Assembly: GCA_030608465.1 (NCBI GenBank) | Contig: JAUWEC010000005.1 | Location: forward strand, 1 to 35,340 | From: Chloroflexota bacterium | GTDB taxonomy: Bacteria > Chloroflexota > Anaerolineae > Anaerolineales > UBA11858 | Length of the DNA: 35,340 bases | Reading direction: 5' to 3' | Shown: positions 4,343 through 33,644 of the stretch, one piece after another | Layout: each line of letters begins with the position of its first letter | Position numbering within the stretch: position 1 is the stretch's first letter | Position numbers and translations under genes: made by a program | Notes under the pieces: model-generated | Told to the model about the DNA's origin: nothing | Databases searched by the model: none | The model's input: the letters and a program-made list of their open reading frames with translations, nothing else

Positions 4343-5983
4343 TTACAGCCAGTTCATGGTAACAAGGACAACCGGCCGTTTTTTAGTTTTGCTGTAAAGG
4401 AAGGAACGGACAGTTTGAACCAATTCGTCATGTAAATCGCCTTTGGTATTTTCGACAACCCCAACGATTTTTTGCCGGGTCTGCTCAATGATATCATCAT
4501 CATCGTGTTTATATATAAATCCACGGGAGATGATCTCTGGTTCTTCGTGCAGTTTGCTATCTCTTTCCAAGACCAGACTGATCAACACGACCCCATCCTG
4601 GGCGAGCTGTTCTCGTTCCCGGACAACGCTGGGTCCGATTTCTCCTACGCGTGAACCGTCCACAAAGACATAATTACCCGGGATTCTGTCTTTGATTTCC
4701 AATTTTTCACCATCAAATTCAATGACCTCTCCATTTTCGATCACCAGCACATTTTCAGTTGGAAAGTCGGATTCCTCTGCCAGCACAGCGTGCTGTTTTA
4801 AATGTCTTAATTCTCCGTGTACAGGAATCAGGTATGTGGGATTAACGATATTCAGCATTAGCTTCATCTCGTCCTGGTTGGCATGTCCTGAGACATGAAC
4901 ACCTCCAGCAAGCGGTTCGTAAACAACATTTGCACCCCGGCGGAACAGGCGATTGATGGTTTTAAATACTGCTTCCTCATTGCCCGGGATGGCGTGGGAG
5001 GAAAGTACAATCGTATCGTCTTTGATCAGATCAAAACGTTTGTTGGTACCCCGGGAAAGCCGGCCCATGATTGAGTAGGGCTCTCCTTGGGAACCAGTTG
5101 CCATCAACACTACATCCTTGGGATTCATTTTTAAGGCTGATTCCAACCCGACTTCAATATCGGGAGGAATCTCCAGGTAACCCAATTTTTTTGCCATCTT
5201 GGAGTTTTTAGTCATGCTGTAGCCGACAAAAGCAATCTTGCGTCCATAACGGTCAGCAGTATCAATTACCTGCTGCATCCTTGACACCAGGGAGGCGAAG
5301 GAAGCCACGATAATCCGGCCCGGCGCTGACCTGAAAACTTTATCCAGGGAGTCATTAATTACCATTTCTGAAGGCGTCCACCCCGGTTTATCAGAGTTGG
5401 TGGAATCCGCCATTAAGGCAAGGACACCTCGCCCGGAGAATTCAGCCAGCTTGGCAAAATCTGTTGGCCATCCGTCAACGGGGGTAGGATCAAATTTATA
5501 ATCTCCTGTGTGAACGATTAATCCATCCGGGCAGGTTATGCCTAAACCGACGCTGTCTGGAATGGAATGGCAGACATGGAAGAATTCCACTTCAAAGGGA
5601 CCAATGTTCACCATTTCTCCTGCATGCACTGTTTGGATGCTAGTTTTGTCCAGCATCCCTTTTTCGGACAAATTGACTTCAATAAACCCCTTGGTGAGCG
5701 GAGTTGCGTAGACCGGGACATTCACTTCCTCCAGGACATACGATATAGCTCCCACATGATCCATGTGGCCGTGGGTGATGATAATACCTCTCACCAGGTC
5801 TTTGTTTTTCTTGATGTATTCGAAATCCGGGATGATGTAATCAATTCCCGGCATATCATGGTCGGGGAACATGATACCTGTATCTACGATGAGAATGTTC
5901 TTTCCATATTCGTAGACCATCATGTTTTTACCGACTTCCCCCAGACCTCCTAAGGGAATAATTCTTAATTTGTTTTTACTCAT
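4343..5983 (-). CDS. rnj: Ribonuclease J
   Basis: This is a metallo-beta-lactamase/beta-CASP ribonuclease combining endonuclease and 5'-3' exonuclease activity in mRNA decay and rRNA maturation. The metal motif THGHMDHVG is at residues 70-78 (His71, His73, Asp75, His76). A further metal His is in HVCHSIPDS, HTGDYKFDP supplies the Asp, and VHVSGHA and PVHGE carry the beta-CASP and C-terminal His residues. At 546 aa it has the usual length with the C-terminal dimerisation domain. The start ATG is preceded by AAGGA. The gene has its own promoter at 6218-6246 and a leader of about 230 nt with hairpins, so leader-based control is plausible. Confidence 0.96.
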   Translation of the reverse strand: MSKNKLRIIPLGGLGEVGKNMMVYEYGKNILIVDTGIMFPDHDMPGIDYIIPDFEYIKKNKDLVRGIIITHGHMDHVGAISYVLEEVNVPVYATPLTKGFIEVNLSEKGMLDKTSIQTVHAGEMVNIGPFEVEFFHVCHSIPDSVGLGITCPDGLIVHTGDYKFDPTPVDGWPTDFAKLAEFSGRGVLALMADSTNSDKPGWTPSEMVINDSLDKVFRSAPGRIIVASFASLVSRMQQVIDTADRYGRKIAFVGYSMTKNSKMAKKLGYLEIPPDIEVGLESALKMNPKDVVLMATGSQGEPYSIMGRLSRGTNKRFDLIKDDTIVLSSHAIPGNEEAVFKTINRLFRRGANVVYEPLAGGVHVSGHANQDEMKLMLNIVNPTYLIPVHGELRHLKQHAVLAEESDFPTENVLVIENGEVIEFDGEKLEIKDRIPGNYVFVDGSRVGEIGPSVVREREQLAQDGVVLISLVLERDSKLHEEPEIISRGFIYKHDDDDIIEQTRQKIVGVVENTKGDLHDELVQTVRSFLYSKTKKRPVVLVTMNWL

Positions 5984-6066
5984 ATTTCAATTCCTTCATT
6001 ATGTTTTCCTTCTGGGTTCGGTTCTTGCCGAATTCCCGGGAAGGTTATTTTTCTGATAATAAAATA

Positions 6067-6091
6067 CCCGGTCGGGACTTAACCGGCCGGG
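6067..6091 (-). promoter_or_regulatory. Terminator-like hairpin in the rnj leader
   Basis: CCCGGTCGG (6067-6075) and CCGGCCGGG (6083-6091) form a nearly perfect 9-bp stem with a 7-nt loop. On the minus strand it is followed by TATTTTATTATC. It lies inside the rnj leader, about 85 nt before the start codon, so it may act as an attenuator or end a short leader RNA of about 145 nt. Confidence 0.5.
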
Positions 6092-6174
6092 CAGTGCTTT
6101 TGGAAACTATTTTTTAGGAAAATATCTTGCGATACAACTTAAACCATATGGATCGTCTAGCATGTACAGTTTTT

Positions 6175-6237
6175 GCTGGTTTAACCAGCCGGGGTTTCTT
6201 TTCCAGAAACCGGAGTGATTCTAACAGCTAAACCCCG
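6175..6237 (-). promoter_or_regulatory. Hairpins around the rnj transcription start
   Basis: Two inverted repeats are visible: GCTGG-TTTAA-CCAGC at 6175-6189, and CGGGGTTT (6190-6197) complementary to AAACCCCG (6230-6237). The second spans the -10 box, so in DNA it could be a protein-binding dyad. The first lies wholly in the transcribed leader and would be an RNA hairpin. Confidence 0.4.
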
Positions 6238-6246
6238 TTTTGTCAA
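6218..6246 (-). promoter_or_regulatory. Sigma-70-type promoter of rnj
   Basis: On the minus strand TTGACA (6241-6246), a 17-bp spacer and TAGAAT (6218-6223) make a near-consensus promoter. Predicted transcription starts near 6211, giving a leader of about 228 nt before the rnj ATG at 5983. Confidence 0.8.
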
Positions 6247-6396
6247 AAGCAGGCAAGAACATCAAGGGAATAATTACCCGGATTGGTTCATATTGGATCC
6301 TTCGTTACAGGCAAAACTGGCTTGATTATACCCGCTGGAAGCAGCTGTTTTTCTGTATTTGGACTAGAACCGCTTACTACCTGTGTTAAAAAAATA
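6247..6396. other. Intergenic sequence between the rnj promoter and groEL terminator
   Basis: This is the upstream part of the 466-bp gap between groEL and rnj. I see no open frame with a credible start and no repeat. The other parts of the gap hold the rnj promoter and leader hairpins (6067-6246) and the groEL terminator (6397-6425). Confidence 0.5.
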
Positions 6397-6425
6397 TAGT
6401 GTGGATCAAATATCAATCCACACTA
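6390..6425 (-). terminator. Terminator of groEL
   Basis: TAGTGTGGAT (6397-6406) and ATCCACACTA (6416-6425) form a perfect 10-bp stem with a 9-nt loop. On the minus strand it is followed by TATTTTTTT, a classic intrinsic terminator 25 bp past the groEL stop. Confidence 0.9.
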
Positions 6426-6449
6426 CATATAGTTTTACAAAACAGCAGA

Positions 6450-8111
6450 TTACATCATGCTGGGCATGCCGCCGCCCATGCCGCCACCCATGCCTCCGGG
6501 CATCATATCGCCGTCTTCTTTCGGCTCGTCAGCAATAAGCGCTTCAGTGGTCAGGATCATTGCCGCAATGGATGCTGCATTCTCGAGCGCACCGCGGGTT
6601 ACCTTGGCAGGATCGATTACGCCGGTATCAATCATGTTAACGTACTTCTCACTGAGGACATCGTATCCAATATAGTTGTCTTTTTTCTCTTCCTGGTAAC
6701 GGCGTACGTTTTCCAGAATTACTGCTCCGTCTTTCCCTGCGTTTTCAGCAATTTTGCGCATGGGGAGGTCCAGAGCAAGGCGGACGATTTTTACGCCCAC
6801 CTGGGCATCAGCGTATTCCATCTTGAGCTTATCGATGGCCTTGGCAGCGTTAATCAGCGCCACACCCCCTCCCGGAACAATACCTTCCTCAACAGCAGCG
6901 CGTGTCGCGGAAAGGGCGTCTTCTACCCGGTGTTTCTTTTCTTTCAGTTCGGTTTCAGTCGCTGCGCCAACACGAATAATCGCCACCCCGCCGGAGAGTT
7001 TTGCAAGCCGCTCCTGTAGCTTTTCGCTGTCGTAGTCGCTGGTGCTGGAATCAATCTCGTTCCGGATTTGCTGGATGCGGGCCTTGATTTGTTTGTTGTC
7101 TCCCTTTCCGCCGACGACAGTGGTGTCATCTTTGGTGGAGATCACTTTTTCGGCATTACCCAGATCGTCAACAGTCGCGCTGTCCAGCTTGCGTCCCAGA
7201 TCTTCAGAAATCACGGTAGCGCCGGTCAGGATTGCGATGTCCTGGAGCATGGCTTTCCGGCGGTCGCCGAATCCAGGGGCTTTAATAGCCAGAACGTTAA
7301 TCATACCGCGGAGTTTGTTTAGTACCAGGGTGGCTAGAGCTTCGCCATCCACATCTTCAGCAACGATTACCAGATCCCGTTTACCCATTTGAACCAACCG
7401 TTCCAGTAAAGGAACCAGGTCCTGAGCAGCTGAAATCTTGGAGTCGTGGATTAGCAGGCTGGGTTCTTCAATAACCGCTTCCATGTCATCAGCATTGGTG
7501 ACGAAGTACGGGGAAAGGTAGCCGCGATCAAACTGCATACCTTCAACATACTCGGTTTCAAATGCCAGTGTTTTGGATTCTTCAACGGTGATCACGCCGT
7601 CTTTTCCGACTTTGTCCATTACATTTGCGATCAGTTCACCGATTGACCGGTCCTGGGCAGAGATGCTGGCCACGTTGCCGATTTCTTCTTTGGTAGTGAC
7701 ATCAATGGCACTTTTACCGATATCCTCGGAAACTGCCTTGGTGGCTGCTTCAATGCCCTGTTTCAATAGCATGGGATTGAATCCGGCTGCTAGGTTTTTC
7801 ATACCCTCGGTAACGATGGAATGAGCCAGCAGGGTTGATGTAGTGGTGCCGTCACCAGCGATGTCGTTGGTTTTAGTGGCTGCTTCTTTCAGCAGCTGGG
7901 CACCCATGTTTTCAAATTTATCCTTTAGCTCAATTTCCTTGGCAACGGTCACACCATCATGAGTGATTGTGGGGCTGCCGAAACTTCGGTCCAATGCTAC
8001 ATTGCGGCCTTTGGGACCCAAGGTGGTGATAACGGCTTTTGCCAATGTATCCATCCCGATCTGAAGTTTCCGTCGGGCTTCTTCTGAAAATACGATTTGC
8101 TTTCCTGCCAT
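6450..8111 (-). CDS. groL: Chaperonin GroEL
   Basis: This is the 60-kDa chaperonin, the tetradecameric ATP-dependent folding chamber of the cytoplasm. The sequence is canonical throughout: [15 protein letters not shown] near the N-terminus, [12 protein letters not shown] carrying the ATPase Asp, [23 protein letters not shown] in the apical domain, [12 protein letters not shown], and a Gly-Met-rich tail ([15 protein letters not shown]). At 553 aa it is slightly longer than most because of the tail. AAGGAG lies 9 nt before the ATG. No groES adjoins it, so the co-chaperonin must be encoded elsewhere. A strong promoter and a CIRCE operator upstream place it under HrcA control, and hrcA itself is about 4 kb away. 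Confidence 0.98.
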
Positions 8112-8211
8112 AGATTTCTACTCCTTCCTCACTAAAAAAGAATTCACGGTTGTAAGATAAATGCTTTTACTCCGATTCAACAGCAGGTTACCCTGATCTG
8201 ATACTGGAGTG

Positions 8212-8238
8212 TTAGCAGTCCATATATTTGACTGCTAA
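8212..8238 (-). promoter_or_regulatory. CIRCE operator of groEL (variant arms)
   Basis: TTAGCAGTC (8212-8220), a 9-nt spacer and GACTGCTAA (8230-8238) form a perfect 9-bp inverted repeat. This is the CIRCE layout (TTAGCACTC-N9-GAGTGCTAA) except that both arms carry G instead of C at arm position 7, with the compensating change in the partner arm. It lies just downstream of the groEL promoter, where HrcA would block transcription. Confidence 0.9.
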
Positions 8239-8250
8239 GTAGCGGGTATT

Positions 8251-8279
8251 ATGATAACTTTCTTCCAAATGAAAGTCAA
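8251..8279 (-). promoter_or_regulatory. Sigma-70-type promoter of groEL
   Basis: On the minus strand TTGACT (8274-8279), a 17-bp spacer and TATCAT (8251-8256) form a good promoter. The CIRCE operator begins 12 bp past the -10 box, covering the start of the transcript. Confidence 0.8.
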
Positions 8280-8380
8280 GTTTTACTAAAAGGCTTTTAT
8301 ATGATTCTTATAATAGTCTTAGACATCTGGATATAGCGAAATCCCGGTTTAACTCTGACCTGATAGATGAATCTGATGAA

Positions 8381-9721
8381 TTAAGGCGCCGGGGTAGCTT
8401 CTAATAAATAACAGATTGCCTCATTTTCAGCCACGATGCTCATCAAGGTGGGATCGCTGCTGAAATTTACTTTCAGCTCTGCCAGAATCTGTAATGCTTC
8501 CGGGCAATAATTCTGACCGGGACGGCTGAGTGCGGCAAGCACAGATCCGTAGCGGGCGTAATAATAAGCGACATCAAAATTATTGAGTTCCAATGCTTGT
8601 ACGGCAGCGCCGCCCACTTCGTTTTCTTCAGCCGAGCATCCAACTACCGCGCATTTCAAGACCGGTAGGGCGCCCTCATAATTCCTGGCCCGGACATAAA
8701 TATCCCCCAACTGACCGTAGGTGTTCGCGTTGGTGGGATTGATTGCTATGGCTTTTTCCCCATTTACCGCTGCAATGAAAAATTCCCCACTCCGGGAGTA
8801 GGTTTTGGCAATTGCGATATAAGGGAGCGGATCCTCAACCCCGTTGGACTGATTTATTGTGATTGCTTTGGCAAAATAATCTAATGCGGTGTCATATACT
8901 TTTAATGCCCGGTAGATGACACCGATCCGGATGTAAAGAAATGTCAGATTAGGGTTGATTTCGACTGCCTTCTCAAATTCCTCAATGGCATATCTGTATT
9001 CCCCCAGCGCTTCCAGCACAGTTCCGTAGACCCGATGAGTATCCATTAATTCCGGACCCTGGCTTACCGCCAGCCGGGCATGTTCTTCGGCCTGGGCTTT
9101 TTGATTTTGATCCAAAAGCACTTCCGCATAAAACGCCAGCGCCAGACTGTTGTTCGGGTCGAGGGTAATTGCCAGGTTAGCAGCCTGTTCAGCCTCATTC
9201 AGCCAACCCTGCTTTTCCTGATCACTGGCTGCTGCAGAAGTTGAGCTCCAGTCCAAGACCAAAGCGCGGATTGCCTGGACTGTGCTGTCACCCGGGGCCC
9301 CTTCTGCCGCAATTTGGATTTCCTGACGGGCCAGAGATAATCGTTCTGTCCGCTCTTCAGTGGTGGATAACAATGCTGAGGAATACGTCAACAGTCGTGC
9401 AAGTTCAGCTCGGACTTGGGCATTTTCCGGATGGAGCTCCAGTACCTCATAATAGGCATCAATAGCATCTTTCCCATCCGGATCGAATATCTTTCCAGCT
9501 TCAAAATACGCCTGCCCTTCCTGGACGAGAGAATCCACTGTCCTGGTCGCGGTCGGCGTGGGGAGAAACAGGGGTTCAAATTGACCTTCGGGGTCGTTTA
9601 CCTCCAATGCAAACCATAAACCGACCGCAATAACGGCAACCAAAATCAGGATGCGGTTTAAATTAAGGGTTGGTTTGTTTTTGCTGAATGTGGGCCGTTT
9701 TCCGGTTAGTTTTTGATCCAT
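8381..9721 (-). CDS. Membrane-anchored TPR protein (paralogue 1)
   Basis: The 446-aa protein has a basic N-terminus, one transmembrane helix at about residues 24-40 (ILILVAVIAVGLWFALEV) and a Pro/Thr linker (PLFLPTPTATRT), then tetratricopeptide repeats to near the end. Recognisable repeat pieces include AIDAYYEVLELHPEN, AIEEFEKAVEINPN, ALDYFAKAITINQ and AAVNGEKAIAINPTNANTYGQLGDIY. The TPR domain is probably extracytoplasmic and acts as a binding scaffold; no partner can be named. Four Cys in the C-terminal part (two in CAVVGC) may form disulfides. It lies 99 bp downstream of a paralogue with the same plan. No clear Shine-Dalgarno precedes the ATG. Confidence 0.85.
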   Translation of the reverse strand: MDQKLTGKRPTFSKNKPTLNLNRILILVAVIAVGLWFALEVNDPEGQFEPLFLPTPTATRTVDSLVQEGQAYFEAGKIFDPDGKDAIDAYYEVLELHPENAQVRAELARLLTYSSALLSTTEERTERLSLARQEIQIAAEGAPGDSTVQAIRALVLDWSSTSAAASDQEKQGWLNEAEQAANLAITLDPNNSLALAFYAEVLLDQNQKAQAEEHARLAVSQGPELMDTHRVYGTVLEALGEYRYAIEEFEKAVEINPNLTFLYIRIGVIYRALKVYDTALDYFAKAITINQSNGVEDPLPYIAIAKTYSRSGEFFIAAVNGEKAIAINPTNANTYGQLGDIYVRARNYEGALPVLKCAVVGCSAEENEVGGAAVQALELNNFDVAYYYARYGSVLAALSRPGQNYCPEALQILAELKVNFSSDPTLMSIVAENEAICYLLEATPAP

Positions 9722-29535: not shown

Positions 29536-29997
29536 TTACCCGAGCTTGCCTTCAAGGACCAATTCAGCGCTTTCCAGGTTTTCTCCTTCATAAATATAAT
29601 ACTTTAATTCAAGCGGTATCACCTTTCCCAGCATTGCCTGGGCTGGACAATATGTGTCTGCTGACAGCTCCAGCGCCCGGGTCATTGCTTTCTCTGAAAG
29701 ATCTTTCCCTGCAGCGTGGTATTCAATTATAGCGTTTGTGAACACCTTGGGATGTTCCTCGGTCCGTTCAGTGAATACTTTGACGTGGAAATCTGAGATT
29801 TCCTGGCGTTTTTTACCCAAAATGGAAATGACGTCCATGGCTGTGCAGCCTGCCAGGCTGATAGCCATAAGTTCCATTGGACGAAATCCGTCATTATCTC
29901 CACCAACTTCCGGGGAGGAACCCAGGGGGACTTCAAACCCGGAGTCAGCAGCCCCAGTAAAAGACATTCGGCCTTTCCATTGCACTTTAACTTTCAT
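29536..29997 (-). CDS. OsmC family protein
   Basis: The 153-aa OsmC/Ohr-fold protein belongs to a family of Cys-based (hydro)peroxide reductases or related redox proteins. The two reactive-site Cys are in SLAGCTAMDV and DTYCPAQAML, the usual positions. EVGGDNDGFRPMELMAISLAGC is the standard family core, closest to the YhfA-like subgroup, whose function is less certain than Ohr. It starts 3 bp after the stop of the TlpA-like gene upstream on the same strand. The pair therefore forms an operon, likely for thiol or peroxide homeostasis, sensible in an anaerobe with oxygen-sensitive CODH/ACS. Confidence 0.9.
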   Translation of the reverse strand: MKVKVQWKGRMSFTGAADSGFEVPLGSSPEVGGDNDGFRPMELMAISLAGCTAMDVISILGKKRQEISDFHVKVFTERTEEHPKVFTNAIIEYHAAGKDLSEKAMTRALELSADTYCPAQAMLGKVIPLELKYYIYEGENLESAELVLEGKLG

Positions 29998-30000
29998 TGA

Positions 30001-30591
30001 TTACTCCTTTAAAAGAGGGGTGACATATTTTTCCAGGGTGGGGCCATTAATAGCTCCTAACCAGGCCAGCCGTAGATTTCCTTTCCTGTCAATCACAAAT
30101 GAGTTTGGCAGTGAACTGTGCTGAAATGTGATCAGGGATTTGTTTTCAGGATCCAGCAAGATCACAAAATCCAACCCCGCCTGCTCAACGAAATTCCTGA
30201 CCTCGGTTTCCGGTTCACCAGCCTCAATAGCAATAACTTGAAATCCCTGATCTTTATACTTGTCGTAGTAAGCTTTAAATTCTGGCATTTCCTCCCGGCA
30301 GGGAGGACACCATGTCGCCCAATTGTTTACCAGGATGACCTCTCCCCGAAAGTCAGTCAGAGAGACTTCGTTGCCGTCCAGATCAAACAGAGTTAATTCT
30401 GGGGCTGGCTGGTTAACTTCGACAGGAGGGAAGGTGAGGGCATCTATACTTTCATTTGCTTCACCTTGATTTGTGTTAAGGATCAGACCGACTGCGATCA
30501 GGGTAATTATGCCCAGTCCCGCCAGAATAATCGGGAGGAGATTGGGCTTTTGGCTGGTGTTTTTCTTCCCGGTGGCCTTCTTGCTCATCAT
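30001..30591 (-). CDS. Membrane-anchored TlpA/ResA-like thioredoxin
   Basis: The 196-aa protein has a basic N-terminus, one membrane helix (LLPIILAGLGIITLIAVGLIL) and an extracytoplasmic thioredoxin domain. The domain has the redox motif WCPPC in NNWATWCPPCREEMPEF and the cis-Pro region SLPNSFVIDRKG. TlpA/ResA proteins reduce disulfides, for example in cytochrome c maturation, or act as peroxiredoxin-like reductases. Start choice: AAGGGA lies 5 nt before ATG 30591 (8 nt before ATG 30588). A longer frame opens at ATG 30630 but has no ribosome-binding site there. It is the first gene of the tlpA-osmC pair. Confidence 0.9.
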   Translation of the reverse strand: MMSKKATGKKNTSQKPNLLPIILAGLGIITLIAVGLILNTNQGEANESIDALTFPPVEVNQPAPELTLFDLDGNEVSLTDFRGEVILVNNWATWCPPCREEMPEFKAYYDKYKDQGFQVIAIEAGEPETEVRNFVEQAGLDFVILLDPENKSLITFQHSSLPNSFVIDRKGNLRLAWLGAINGPTLEKYVTPLLKE

Positions 30592-31234
30592 GCTTTCCCT
30601 TATCGGATTTTGATAGTCTACTAAGAGCATTGATATTGTTCTATTGTACTATTTAGAGAACAGGAAAACGGATAATCTTACTCATATTTATCCTGGTAAA
30701 AAGCTGCTAGATTTCAAACAGGGATTTCGGGTTCTTCTTCTCCTATCCATTTTTGTAATTTACTTAACATCGCTGGATTACAGGGGATTTCGACACTCGT
30801 TGTTTCCTGAATAATCAATTCAACAGCAGGTTGTTTTACTGGTCATAACAGGGTGGATGGTATATAAATGTCACTTAAAATAGGTGAGTTTTGTCCCTCG
30901 AATTATTATATAGGACAATGATAAAAAAAAAGATTGCTGGTATACTTAGCGGAGAAAGTTGAGTTCAACTTTTGCTTCCATCAGCGATAACCAGTAAACA
31001 ATGACAAATATTGGTAAAGCATGTTGTTTGAACAGCGCTGAAGCTGTGGTAAATTGCACCCATATTTATCGGTATCAAGTTTTTGGATTTACCCAACCGG
31101 ACTTCAGGGAACTTTTACTCACAGAAAAACTAGGGAAGCACTATCCAGGACAGACTATTTTGACCTGGTGTGTTTCTCTATACTTTTAACTGTTTTAATT
31201 GCCATCTGAAAAAATTCGACAAAGGAGAGCATGA
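30592..31234. other. Large intergenic region upstream of the CODH operon
   Basis: This 643-bp A+T-rich gap separates the divergent TlpA and CODH operons. On the minus strand a 42-codon open stretch without ATG (30714-30842) looks somewhat protein-like. A promoter with TATACT at 30941-30946 points toward cooS. The leader from there to 31235 is about 280 nt. A 62-codon ATG frame (31001-31189) has no Shine-Dalgarno and odd composition, so I do not call it. I recognise no riboswitch. Confidence 0.5.
30938..30946 (+). promoter_or_regulatory. Extended -10 promoter candidate of the CODH operon
   Basis: TGG-TATACT at 30938-30946 is an extended -10 (TGn + hexamer). No good -35 exists at 17 bp (ATGATA). 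Predicted transcription starts near 30953. A GTTGAGTTCAAC-type palindrome follows close downstream (30958-30969). Confidence 0.45.
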
Positions 31235-31645
31235 ATGAAAACATTGTCTCTAGAACTCCCCGTAATGTATGGAGACCATCATGTAAAAGAAGTCAGACGG
31301 ATATTATTGGAAATTGAGGGCGTAAAGGATGTTTACGCCAGCAGCAGTTTCCTTGTTGTCGAAGTAAAATACGACGCAAAGAAAACTACCCCTGAAGACC
31401 TCACCGCTGTGCTGGAGAAAGCCGGGTATATTGGTGACCCCGGCATTCTGGTTGAACCATCCATACCTGCCAATTTACGTGAAGGAGATAAGCATTACCG
31501 TACAACATCATTCAGTGAAGAAACCGGGAATATTATTGGTTTTAAGCAGGAAGTGGCATATCAAGGACGCGCCCAGTGGCCGTGCCCGGGGCTTGGTTTA
31601 CTTAATGTGGTTGAGCCTCAAACTAAGGAGACTAATAATGGTTAA
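31235..31645 (+). CDS. HMA-like small protein preceding CO dehydrogenase
   Basis: The 136-aa protein begins with a ferredoxin-like HMA fold: KTLSLELPVMYGDHHVKEVRRILLEIEGVKDVYAS, then LVVEVKYD and TPEDLTAVLEKAGY in order. The metal-binding CxxC of heavy-metal-associated domains is absent; its loop reads MYGDHH. The C-terminal half is short and contains a single Cys in AQWPCPGLGLL. AAAGGAG precedes the ATG. Its stop codon lies inside the cooS start region (8-nt overlap), so translation of the two is coupled. That coupling suggests a role in CODH/ACS assembly, such as nickel or cluster handling, but function is inferred from position only. Confidence 0.75.
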   Translation: MKTLSLELPVMYGDHHVKEVRRILLEIEGVKDVYASSSFLVVEVKYDAKKTTPEDLTAVLEKAGYIGDPGILVEPSIPANLREGDKHYRTTSFSEETGNIIGFKQEVAYQGRAQWPCPGLGLLNVVEPQTKETNNG

Positions 31646-33644
31646 GAAGGAAAACAAAAAAACCTTAGAAGAGTATTCGCTTGATATAGCGACCCAAGAA
31701 ATGCTGGCTCGTGGTGAAGAATTGGGTTTAGAAACAGCCTTTACCCGTGCTGACAACATGAAGGCCTGTCCCATTGGAGCGGATGCGTTATGCTGCAAAA
31801 TCTGCAGTATGGGTCCCTGCCGAATTGTGAAAGCAGGACAAACCGGGATTTGTGGGGCGACAGCGGATACTATCCAAGCCCGGAATTTTATCCGTATGGT
31901 GGCTGCCGGAGCTGCAGCTCACTCTGATCACGGGCGTGACATGGCGTTTACTTTGAAAGAAACAGCCAACGGTGAAACTCAGGGTTATATTATTCGTGAT
32001 GTCGCCAAACTCCGGAACCTTGCCTCGAATTACAATATCCCCATTGAAGACCGCTCCCCCAACGAAATAGCCAATGATTTGGCGGATTTTTACATTGCCC
32101 AGTTTGGCCAGCAAAAAGGTCTGGTTGCACCGGTAATCCGGGCTCCAAAAAAACGCCGTGAAGTCTGGGAAAAAGTAGGAGTTCTTCCCCGCGGAGTTGA
32201 CCGTGAGATAGTGGAATGCCTGCACCGGACCCATATCGGCGATGACCAGGATGCAGAACATATCCTGGATCACGCGTTACGCACTGCTATCGGTGACGGC
32301 TGGGGCGGCAGTTTGATCGCCACGGACGTATCTGATATTTTATTTGGTTCCCCGGCCCCGATCCTGGGGGAAGCAAATCTTGGCGTTTTGAAAGATGACT
32401 ATGTCAATGTCGTTGTCCATGGACACGAACCCACCTTGAGCAATATGATTGTGGCCGCATCACAATCCCCGGATATCCTCGAATGTGCCCGGGCAGCGGG
32501 CGCTGAAGGAGTGAACATCTCAGGGATTTGCTGTACTGCAAATGAAGTCCTGATGCGTCAGGGTATCCCTGCCGCGGGGAACTTCCTGCAACAGGAATTA
32601 GCTATCATGACCGGTTCTGTGGAATCCATGGTAGTGGATGTTCAATGCATCATGCAGGCTATAGTTGGGCTGGCCGCAAATTTCCATACCGAGATCATCA
32701 CCACTTCCAAAAAAGTTAAAATCAAGGGCGCCACGCACATCGAATTTAATGAGAAGAAAGCCCTGGATATCGCCAAAGAGATCCTTCGCTCCGCAATCGA
32801 TAACTATAAAAACCGCGGCGAGACCCGAATTCCTGACCATCGTGAATCCCTCGTTCCTGGTTTTTCCCACGAATATATAAACTATGCCCTGGGAGGTACA
32901 TACCGGTCATCGTTCCGACCCCTCAACGATGCGATTATGTCCGGACGCATCCGAGGTCTGGTGGGTATCGTGGGCTGTAATAACCCTCGAGGCAAACACG
33001 ATGATTTGCATGTGAAATTAGCTGAGGAATTCCTTAAACAGGATGTTTTGGTTGTTGAAACCGGCTGTTCCTCTATTGCCAGCGCAAAGCAGGGTCTGAT
33101 GGTTGGCGAAGCTGGTTTGGACCAAGTAGGTCCCGGTTTGCGGGAGATCTGCGAAACGATTGGTATACCCCCGGTACTGCATATGGGTTCTTGTGTTGAT
33201 AACAGCCGCATTTTGACAGTCCTTGCCCAGGTTGTGGAAGAAGGCGGTTTGGGAGAGGATATCAGCGAAATCCCGGTTGTTGGCTTAGCGCCTGAATGGA
33301 TGAGTGAGAAAGCCATCTCTATCGCGACCTATGTTGTGGCATCAGGTGTCTATACCATCATGTCGGGTACAGCACCGTTAGATGAGAATCCAAAGGTGCC
33401 AGACAGCTCCATTGTTCCTCAACTGCTCAGCAGCGGTTGGACAGAAAAAGTTGGAGCCGGGTTAGAATTTATTCATGATTTCGACACGATCATAGAAAAA
33501 ACCCTGGAGCACATCGATAAAAAACGCGCTGACCTTGGCTTACCCGTTTATGATCCGGAAGCTTTCGGAAAAAGCGGGGATGCCCGGATGAATGAATTTG
33601 AAAAGATGTCTGTGAAAGATCGCCGCGAAGCAATTTACGGATAA
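31638..33644 (+). CDS. cooS: Anaerobic Ni-CO dehydrogenase catalytic subunit
   Basis: CooS/AcsA interconverts CO2 and CO at a Ni-4Fe-5S C-cluster, supplying CO for acetyl-CoA synthesis. All cluster ligands are present in the 668-aa protein: D-cluster Cys44 and Cys52; B-cluster Cys53, Cys56, Cys61 and Cys72 (CKICSMGPC); C-cluster His262 (VHGHEP), Cys297 or Cys298 (GICCTANE), Cys336 (DVQCIMQ), Cys446 (GCNNPRG), Cys476 (GCSS) and Cys518 (GSCVDNSR). The start is ATG 31638, 7 nt after AAGGAG; an upstream in-frame ATG at 31431 lies inside the preceding gene and is spurious. acsB follows 26 nt later, so CODH and ACS probably form one complex. Confidence 0.97.
   Translation: MVKKENKKTLEEYSLDIATQEMLARGEELGLETAFTRADNMKACPIGADALCCKICSMGPCRIVKAGQTGICGATADTIQARNFIRMVAAGAAAHSDHGRDMAFTLKETANGETQGYIIRDVAKLRNLASNYNIPIEDRSPNEIANDLADFYIAQFGQQKGLVAPVIRAPKKRREVWEKVGVLPRGVDREIVECLHRTHIGDDQDAEHILDHALRTAIGDGWGGSLIATDVSDILFGSPAPILGEANLGVLKDDYVNVVVHGHEPTLSNMIVAASQSPDILECARAAGAEGVNISGICCTANEVLMRQGIPAAGNFLQQELAIMTGSVESMVVDVQCIMQAIVGLAANFHTEIITTSKKVKIKGATHIEFNEKKALDIAKEILRSAIDNYKNRGETRIPDHRESLVPGFSHEYINYALGGTYRSSFRPLNDAIMSGRIRGLVGIVGCNNPRGKHDDLHVKLAEEFLKQDVLVVETGCSSIASAKQGLMVGEAGLDQVGPGLREICETIGIPPVLHMGSCVDNSRILTVLAQVVEEGGLGEDISEIPVVGLAPEWMSEKAISIATYVVASGVYTIMSGTAPLDENPKVPDSSIVPQLLSSGWTEKVGAGLEFIHDFDTIIEKTLEHIDKKRADLGLPVYDPEAFGKSGDARMNEFEKMSVKDRREAIYG

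Follow-up and report, generated by a model that had tools for sequence, protein, structure and literature searches.

At the centre of the Wood-Ljungdahl pathway stands the step catalysed by CO dehydrogenase/acetyl-CoA synthase (CODH/ACS), an enzyme whose nickel-cluster loading is only partly understood. What role, then, does a small HMA-like protein play whose gene lies directly before cooS in a Chloroflexota bacterium? The locus is on contig JAUWEC010000005.1, of which we analysed a stretch of 35,340 nucleotides (the window; Table 1). A first-pass annotation had described the protein as an HMA fold with a replaced metal loop and had proposed, from its tight coupling to cooS, a dedicated CODH/ACS assembly or regulatory factor distinct from CooC.

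Table 1. Features of the cooS-acsB region in the window
Feature	Position	Strand	Basis or remark
DHH-type HMA-fold protein gene, 136 aa	31235..31645 (coding 31235-31642, stop TAA 31643-31645)	+	ORF, Pfam, AF2, Foldseek, relatives
MYGDHH loop, residues 11-16, replacing the MxCxxC metal loop	31265..31282	+	Sequence, phmmer alignment to CopZ
C-terminal tail, residues 67-136, holding WPCPGLG with the sole Cys	31433..31642	+	Alignment, AF2; conserved in sequence, low-confidence in the model
WPCPGLG motif, residues 115-121	31577..31597	+	Cys kept in 81/82 A-type rows
cooS, anaerobic CO dehydrogenase catalytic subunit, 668 aa, with conserved C-terminal extension	31638..33644	+	TIGR01702, 595.7 bits (cut-off 478)
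acsB, acetyl-CoA synthase, truncated where the window and contig end	33671..35338	+	Pfam/NCBIfam models

The predicted HMA fold and its altered metal loop

The presence of an HMA-like protein gene adjoining cooS was borne out by its open reading frame, Pfam, AF2 and Foldseek. The start first given, 31235, was correct, while the end had been set at 31660, beyond a stop codon that lies already at 31643-31645. The cooS ATG (31638-31640) falls inside the HMA gene, which ends at 31645, giving the 8 nt overlap that had been noted, and a GGAG stretch lies upstream of this ATG in the window sequence. No RNA elements were found in the window at Rfam gathering scores. Beside the operon, at 29536-30630 on the minus strand, lie an OsmC-like and a ResA/TlpA-like gene; the sister locus L027 has the same pair beside its operon, and L099 has an OsmC-like gene.

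Pfam model PF00403 (HMA) matched residues 11-65 with 28.0 bits (E 2.9e-6), passing the gathering score of 24.8. Two of five relatives were also above the cut-off (L046, 30.7; L016, 26.1) and three were below it (L013, 23.6; L051, 23.0; L106, 18.8). The NCBIfam copper models scored far under their cut-offs for the window protein (24.5 of 62 bits and 24.2 of 91 bits). An AF2 model from 86 aligned rows showed the order E-H-E-E-H with a fourth strand unassigned, and its block pLDDT was 90-96 for residues 1-60, 82 for residues 61-70 and 45-64 further on. A further model, built from 44 rows with L036 as the query, gave the same core and a tail pLDDT of 54-66; thus two models with different query rows both lose confidence after about residue 70. 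The best Foldseek match in the PDB was CopZ (2qif; E 4.7e-5, TM 0.91 by target length), and the top 50 matches listed comprised copper and zinc HMA proteins, MerP, CCS and a YajR domain. Furthermore, a PDB profile search at E <= 1 returned 38 sequences; all were metal proteins of the HMA type whose matches fell within the first ~80 positions, with none over the tail. Together, these results predict a ferredoxin-like HMA fold for the window protein, as had been proposed. The tail is conserved in sequence yet modelled with low confidence, which suggests that it is probably disordered and may fold on a partner.

Replacement of the metal loop by MYGDHH (residues 11-16) was confirmed: phmmer aligned GDHH to CQHC of CopZ, with the first Cys exchanged for Gly and the second for His. 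All 15 members found by BLAST have GDHH or ADHH where CopZ-type proteins have the CxxC of MxCxxC. The family alignment comprised 86 rows, 82 A-type and 4 B-type, in which M1, P9, D14, H15, H16, G29, S36, L60 and Y65 were invariant, the invariance of DHH being biased by the scan pattern, which itself contained DHH and supplied 80 of the rows. CxxC was absent from all 86 aligned members, with the same DHH requirement for 80 of them. Independently of the scan pattern, DHH was conserved in 15/15 BLAST-found members and in 13/13 members found from the cooS side, two sets that overlap.

The tails were more variable. A-type tails read F-R-H-T ... F-x-Q ... G-R-P-L-W-P-C-P-G, and the Cys was kept in 81 of 82 rows, the exception being L099 with VPG for CPG. 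The four B-type tails end in DLxMSG(D/E)xRK(Y/W) and have no Cys. The lone CPGLG cysteine noted earlier therefore holds for the window protein, where residue 117 in WPCPGLG is the only Cys, but not for the family as a whole (none of the four B-type rows). Since L099 and the B-type members do without it, the Cys is not essential, and the alignment points to the DHH loop rather than the Cys as the common family feature. The B-type ending SGDxRKY resembles the CooS extension described below, perhaps by chance. Two B-type copies, L015 (genome G002) and L012 (G015), both from one genus, have no cooS adjoining on the DNA seen, and the former is shortened to 55 aa by internal loss.

Between the window and L027, its nearest relative (88% identical), the HMA gene had a dN of 0.057 and a dS of 0.315 by the NG86 method (dN/dS ~0.18), which indicates purifying selection; the corresponding values for cooS were 0.014 and 0.318.

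Linkage to cooS and acsB

The idea of a dedicated factor predicts that the gene adjoins cooS elsewhere as well. When 400 Chloroflexota genomes were searched at the protein level, 22 had matches at E <= 0.001, and DHH members were present in 15 of these. Among the ten remaining HMA matches, CxxC was recognized by pattern in seven and by eye in one (L019), and two were ambiguous (L025 and L026). Thirteen of the 15 BLAST-found DHH members lie directly before cooS, the exceptions being L012 and L015. A genome-wide scan yielded 203 pattern matches and, from these, 146 relatives; the best 80 of the 146 were kept, a choice that under-samples the remote B-type members. We found that cooS follows directly downstream, on the same strand, in 80/80 of these kept relatives, 78 of which are titled Chloroflexota. 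A scan of viral contigs gave no relatives.

An acsB match follows cooS in 72 of the 80 loci, and the remaining eight end 0-9 nt past the cooS match, so that acsB was found in every locus that runs past cooS. In 71 of the 72, no more than 250 nt separate its start from cooS; in L045 the distance is 3.7 kb, and the stretch between the two genes (5570-9244) holds two long ORFs, of which one begins like a lipoprotein. One locus (L053) ends within acsB. In L046 the match covers 37 residues only (8431-8541) and is followed by unrelated DNA, and acsB looks cut off. These findings, with 80/80 kept relatives and 13/15 BLAST-found members at cooS, agree with the linkage expected of a gene dedicated to CODH/ACS and uphold that part of the earlier proposal. 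The argument from tight coupling fared less well. With automatic choice of start codons, the HMA and cooS genes overlap in 11 of the 80 loci, by 8 nt in eight of them; the gap is 0-15 nt in 53 loci, 16-50 nt in three and more than 50 nt in 13. Thus gene order is conserved, and overlap is not a family trait.

The same neighbourhood was then viewed from cooS. With at most three candidates scored per genome, 33 of the 400 Chloroflexota genomes had cooS at E <= 1e-40; 30 of the 41 matches were fetched as loci. A profile search found the DHH gene in 13 of these 30 loci, with DHH kept and acsB following in all 13. Among the other 17 loci, six from other lineages have acsB but no HMA gene (L121 and L127-L131), L132 has acsB and an upstream end cut by the contig, and ten have neither the HMA gene nor acsB within ~1.5 kb. 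The six cooS-acsB loci that lack the gene indicate that CODH/ACS does not generally depend on the HMA protein.

In a CooS tree of 38 rows (the 30 fetched loci and 8 of the 80 scan loci), 21 carriers of the HMA gene fell within one 22-row clade, with a support of 91/87, which is under the mark for firm support. The one other row in this clade was L132, the locus cut upstream. The tree suggests that the gene was gained once, in a single cooS-acsB lineage, and in that case linkage to acsB cannot be told apart from common descent. CooS itself showed a further feature of the carriers. The C-terminal motif SGDxxM... was found in 70 of 72 complete CooS adjoining the HMA gene, the exceptions being a shortened CooS (L058) and one with an insert (L105); over these 72, from L027 to L106, the extension reads SGDxRMxELExLP...AIYG. 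The full extension occurred in 0/16 non-carrier CooS, of which L125 alone has the SGD start, and one carrier of the HMA gene, L122, has a CooS without it. We regard the extension as a candidate docking site, although shared ancestry would explain its distribution equally well.

Outside Chloroflexota, the operon was found in L090 and L100, from metagenome-assembled genomes titled Deltaproteobacteria and Thermoanaerobaculia. A profile of the family (A2) was searched against 235 genomes of the first phylum and 247 of the second, of which 44 and 59, respectively, had matches at E <= 0.001. Strong matches came from the L090 and L100 genomes only (E 6e-52 and 2.4e-49), and the next best were 4.7e-8 and 3.2e-10; for many genomes of both phyla scoring was confined to the 17-18 best first-look candidates, and this absence is therefore not strict. 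All five weak matches inspected (L140 and L152-L155) had CxxC near the match and none had DHH. On the candidates scored, a spread across other phyla was rejected, and L090 and L100 may represent gene transfer or binning errors.

Several observations concern acsB and the genes after it. A protein with two CBS domains, as determined on a representative, is encoded downstream of cooS-acsB in 28/80 loci, for example in L030. In L027 (8437-12039) and L099 (8425-12072) the AcsB C-terminus is fused to a CdhD domain, giving a single protein of ~1200 aa, a fusion confirmed by Pfam, and the ORF L056_4 is likewise an AcsB-CdhD fusion; CdhD is the corrinoid protein small subunit. In L073 and L090 acsB and CdhD are apparently separate genes. 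The match of the window AcsB (residues 10-556) spans ~43-48 residues beyond the ACS profile or chain length, which suggests insertions within the N-terminal part relative to solved ACS.

Comparison with known metallochaperones and CODH accessory proteins

The closest known proteins are the CopZ/HMA metallochaperones (PF00403, TIGR00003, PDB 2qif and 1k0v), which share the ferredoxin-like core and can be aligned over about residues 1-66. The window family differs from them in having (G/A)DHH for CxxC, an additional conserved tail of ~45-70 residues and a location at cooS-acsB. CCS, the copper chaperone for SOD1, combines a SOD-like domain with a tail bearing CxC. It offers an analogy only, as a client-dedicated protein with an HMA domain and further segments (PDB 6fp6 and 1qup), whereas in the window protein the HMA domain lacks CxxC and the short tail contains a single Cys.

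CooC, the nickel-inserting ATPase, and its ACS paralogue are CODH/ACS accessory proteins found in the same genomes. According to the available part of a 2018 review (PMC6006190), CooC has a deviant Walker A motif, GKGGVGKTT, and a two-Cys metal site; the window protein has neither, and no such Pfam match was obtained. The same source describes CooT and CooJ as small nickel-binding proteins of CODH operons that are not ATPases, CooT being a beta-stranded dimer with Cys2 as nickel ligand and CooJ having a His-rich C-terminal domain with 16 His, and calls the roles of both still unclear. In contrast, residue 2 of the window protein is Lys and its predicted fold is the alpha/beta HMA type, and its three His (residues 15, 16 and 86) form no C-terminal cluster.

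Whole-genome searches of 22 genomes gave two CooC-type ATPase hits in 21, including the sister genome G882. Only G000 had no CooC-type hit; this assembly is 86% complete, and its sister has both. The idea that the HMA protein replaces CooC, hinted at by G000, was rejected on the strength of the other 21 genomes, which indicate that it acts beside CooC, so that the earlier distinction from CooC holds. CooC-type genes, mostly paired and with CxC, lie divergently upstream of the HMA gene in 21/80 loci (20 by a P-loop pattern), and a family of DUF3786 type, assigned on a representative, lies upstream in 16/80. In L106 (3490-5808, opposite strand) two CooC-type ATPases and a DUF3786-type protein form one divergent cluster. 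No paper treating both DUF3786 and CODH was found in the literature searched.

We also looked for earlier descriptions of such a protein. As far as its text was available, PMC13056359 surveys the neighbours of 1351 CODHs, among which it counts CooC, CooT and CooJ as well as FeS proteins, transporters and regulators, and its main text mentions none of the terms heavy metal, HMA, copper or Chloroflex. It reports only neighbours found in more than 10% of a clade, and a lineage-bound partner could therefore be passed over. The available part of PMC6344411 names CooC, CooT, CooJ, HypA and HypB and does not mention heavy metal, copper or CopZ, and that of PMC13240472 contains no mention of heavy metal, HMA, COG2608, CopZ or words beginning with chaperone. 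An HMA-type protein at cooS was not described in the literature searched, whose scope did not extend to supplements and most subscription journals.

Proposed role and its alternatives

The partnership of the HMA protein with cooS-acsB is well supported. As ligands, Asp and His are better suited to Ni(II) or Zn(II) than to Cu(I). We propose, with about even confidence, that the protein is an HMA-derived dedicated accessory factor for CODH/ACS assembly, either a metal carrier or a client positioner; metal binding, nickel as the metal, docking on CooS or CooS-AcsB, a shared message and a role in maturation are the parts of this proposal that we infer. The HMA/CopZ metallochaperone fold would have been taken up into the cooS-acsB operons of one clade of Chloroflexota, mostly Anaerolineae, with the Cu(I)-binding CxxC changed to (G/A)-D-H-H. 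The protein would be made just ahead of CooS from the same message and would use its tail, which is conserved and probably disordered, to dock on CooS in its nascent or apo form or on the CooS-AcsB complex. The Asp/His loop might then carry a metal ion of borderline character, Ni(II) being the likeliest, or the protein might position the client for the nickel-loading CooC-type ATPases. Several points count against this proposal: loss of CxxC can equally mean that the metal site was lost, the A-type (WPCPG) and B-type (...MSG(D/E)xRK(Y/W)) tails differ, the Cys is dispensable, the six cooS-acsB loci of other lineages lack the gene, B-type copies occur away from cooS (L012 and L015), and acsB is irregular in L046 and L045. 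A more specific version, possible though doubtful, is that the protein represents a third kind of nickel-handling factor beside CooC and CooT/CooJ in Anaerolineae and relatives. In this version a copper-chaperone fold would have had its Cu(I) site remodelled into an Asp-His-His site for Ni(II), and a client-docking tail would deliver nickel to CooS-AcsB at its C- or A-cluster site, or shield that site. As a small, easily expressed and lineage-specific protein, it offers a concrete handle on the question of nickel-cluster loading, and heterologous production of the Chloroflexota CODH/ACS in active form may require it.

Ranked second, and in our view rather unlikely, is a small subunit that stays in the CODH/ACS complex permanently, or a structural adaptor of it, in which the HMA fold serves as a protein-binding module without metal. 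This reading is in keeping with the missing CxxC, with residues that are fully or almost fully conserved throughout domain and tail (Y34-A35-S36-S37-F39, E74 and R89), with a conserved tail that probably folds on a partner, and with the CooS extension, present in 70/72 complete neighbours and absent in full form from the 16 non-carriers. HMA folds without CxxC also exist, and we take the YAM domain of YajR, which is in the Foldseek list, to be one. However, the strict D-H-H exactly at the position of the metal loop suggests chemistry over packing, and L122 carries the HMA gene without the CooS extension. A regulator or sensor of metal or redox state that modulates CODH/ACS activity or expression seems improbable: the gene does lie directly before cooS and a single tail Cys is conserved in 81/82 A-type members, but Pfam found no DNA-binding or catalytic domain in the window protein and the B-type members lack the Cys.

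The accessory factor is favoured over both of these, and two other explanations fall further behind. An ordinary copper or heavy-metal chaperone that stands beside cooS by chance is very improbable even though the best sequence and fold matches are CopZ-type, since the Cu(I) ligands of CxxC are missing in 86/86 aligned members (DHH being required for 80) and in 15/15 BLAST-found members, and cooS adjoins 80/80 kept relatives, which excludes a chance neighbourhood. The 8 nt overlap in the window would suit a leader ORF serving only the translational coupling of cooS, an explanation to which we give hardly any credence: such overlap occurs in just 11/80 loci and gaps exceed 50 nt in 13, and the gene shows purifying selection at the protein level and a predicted fold.
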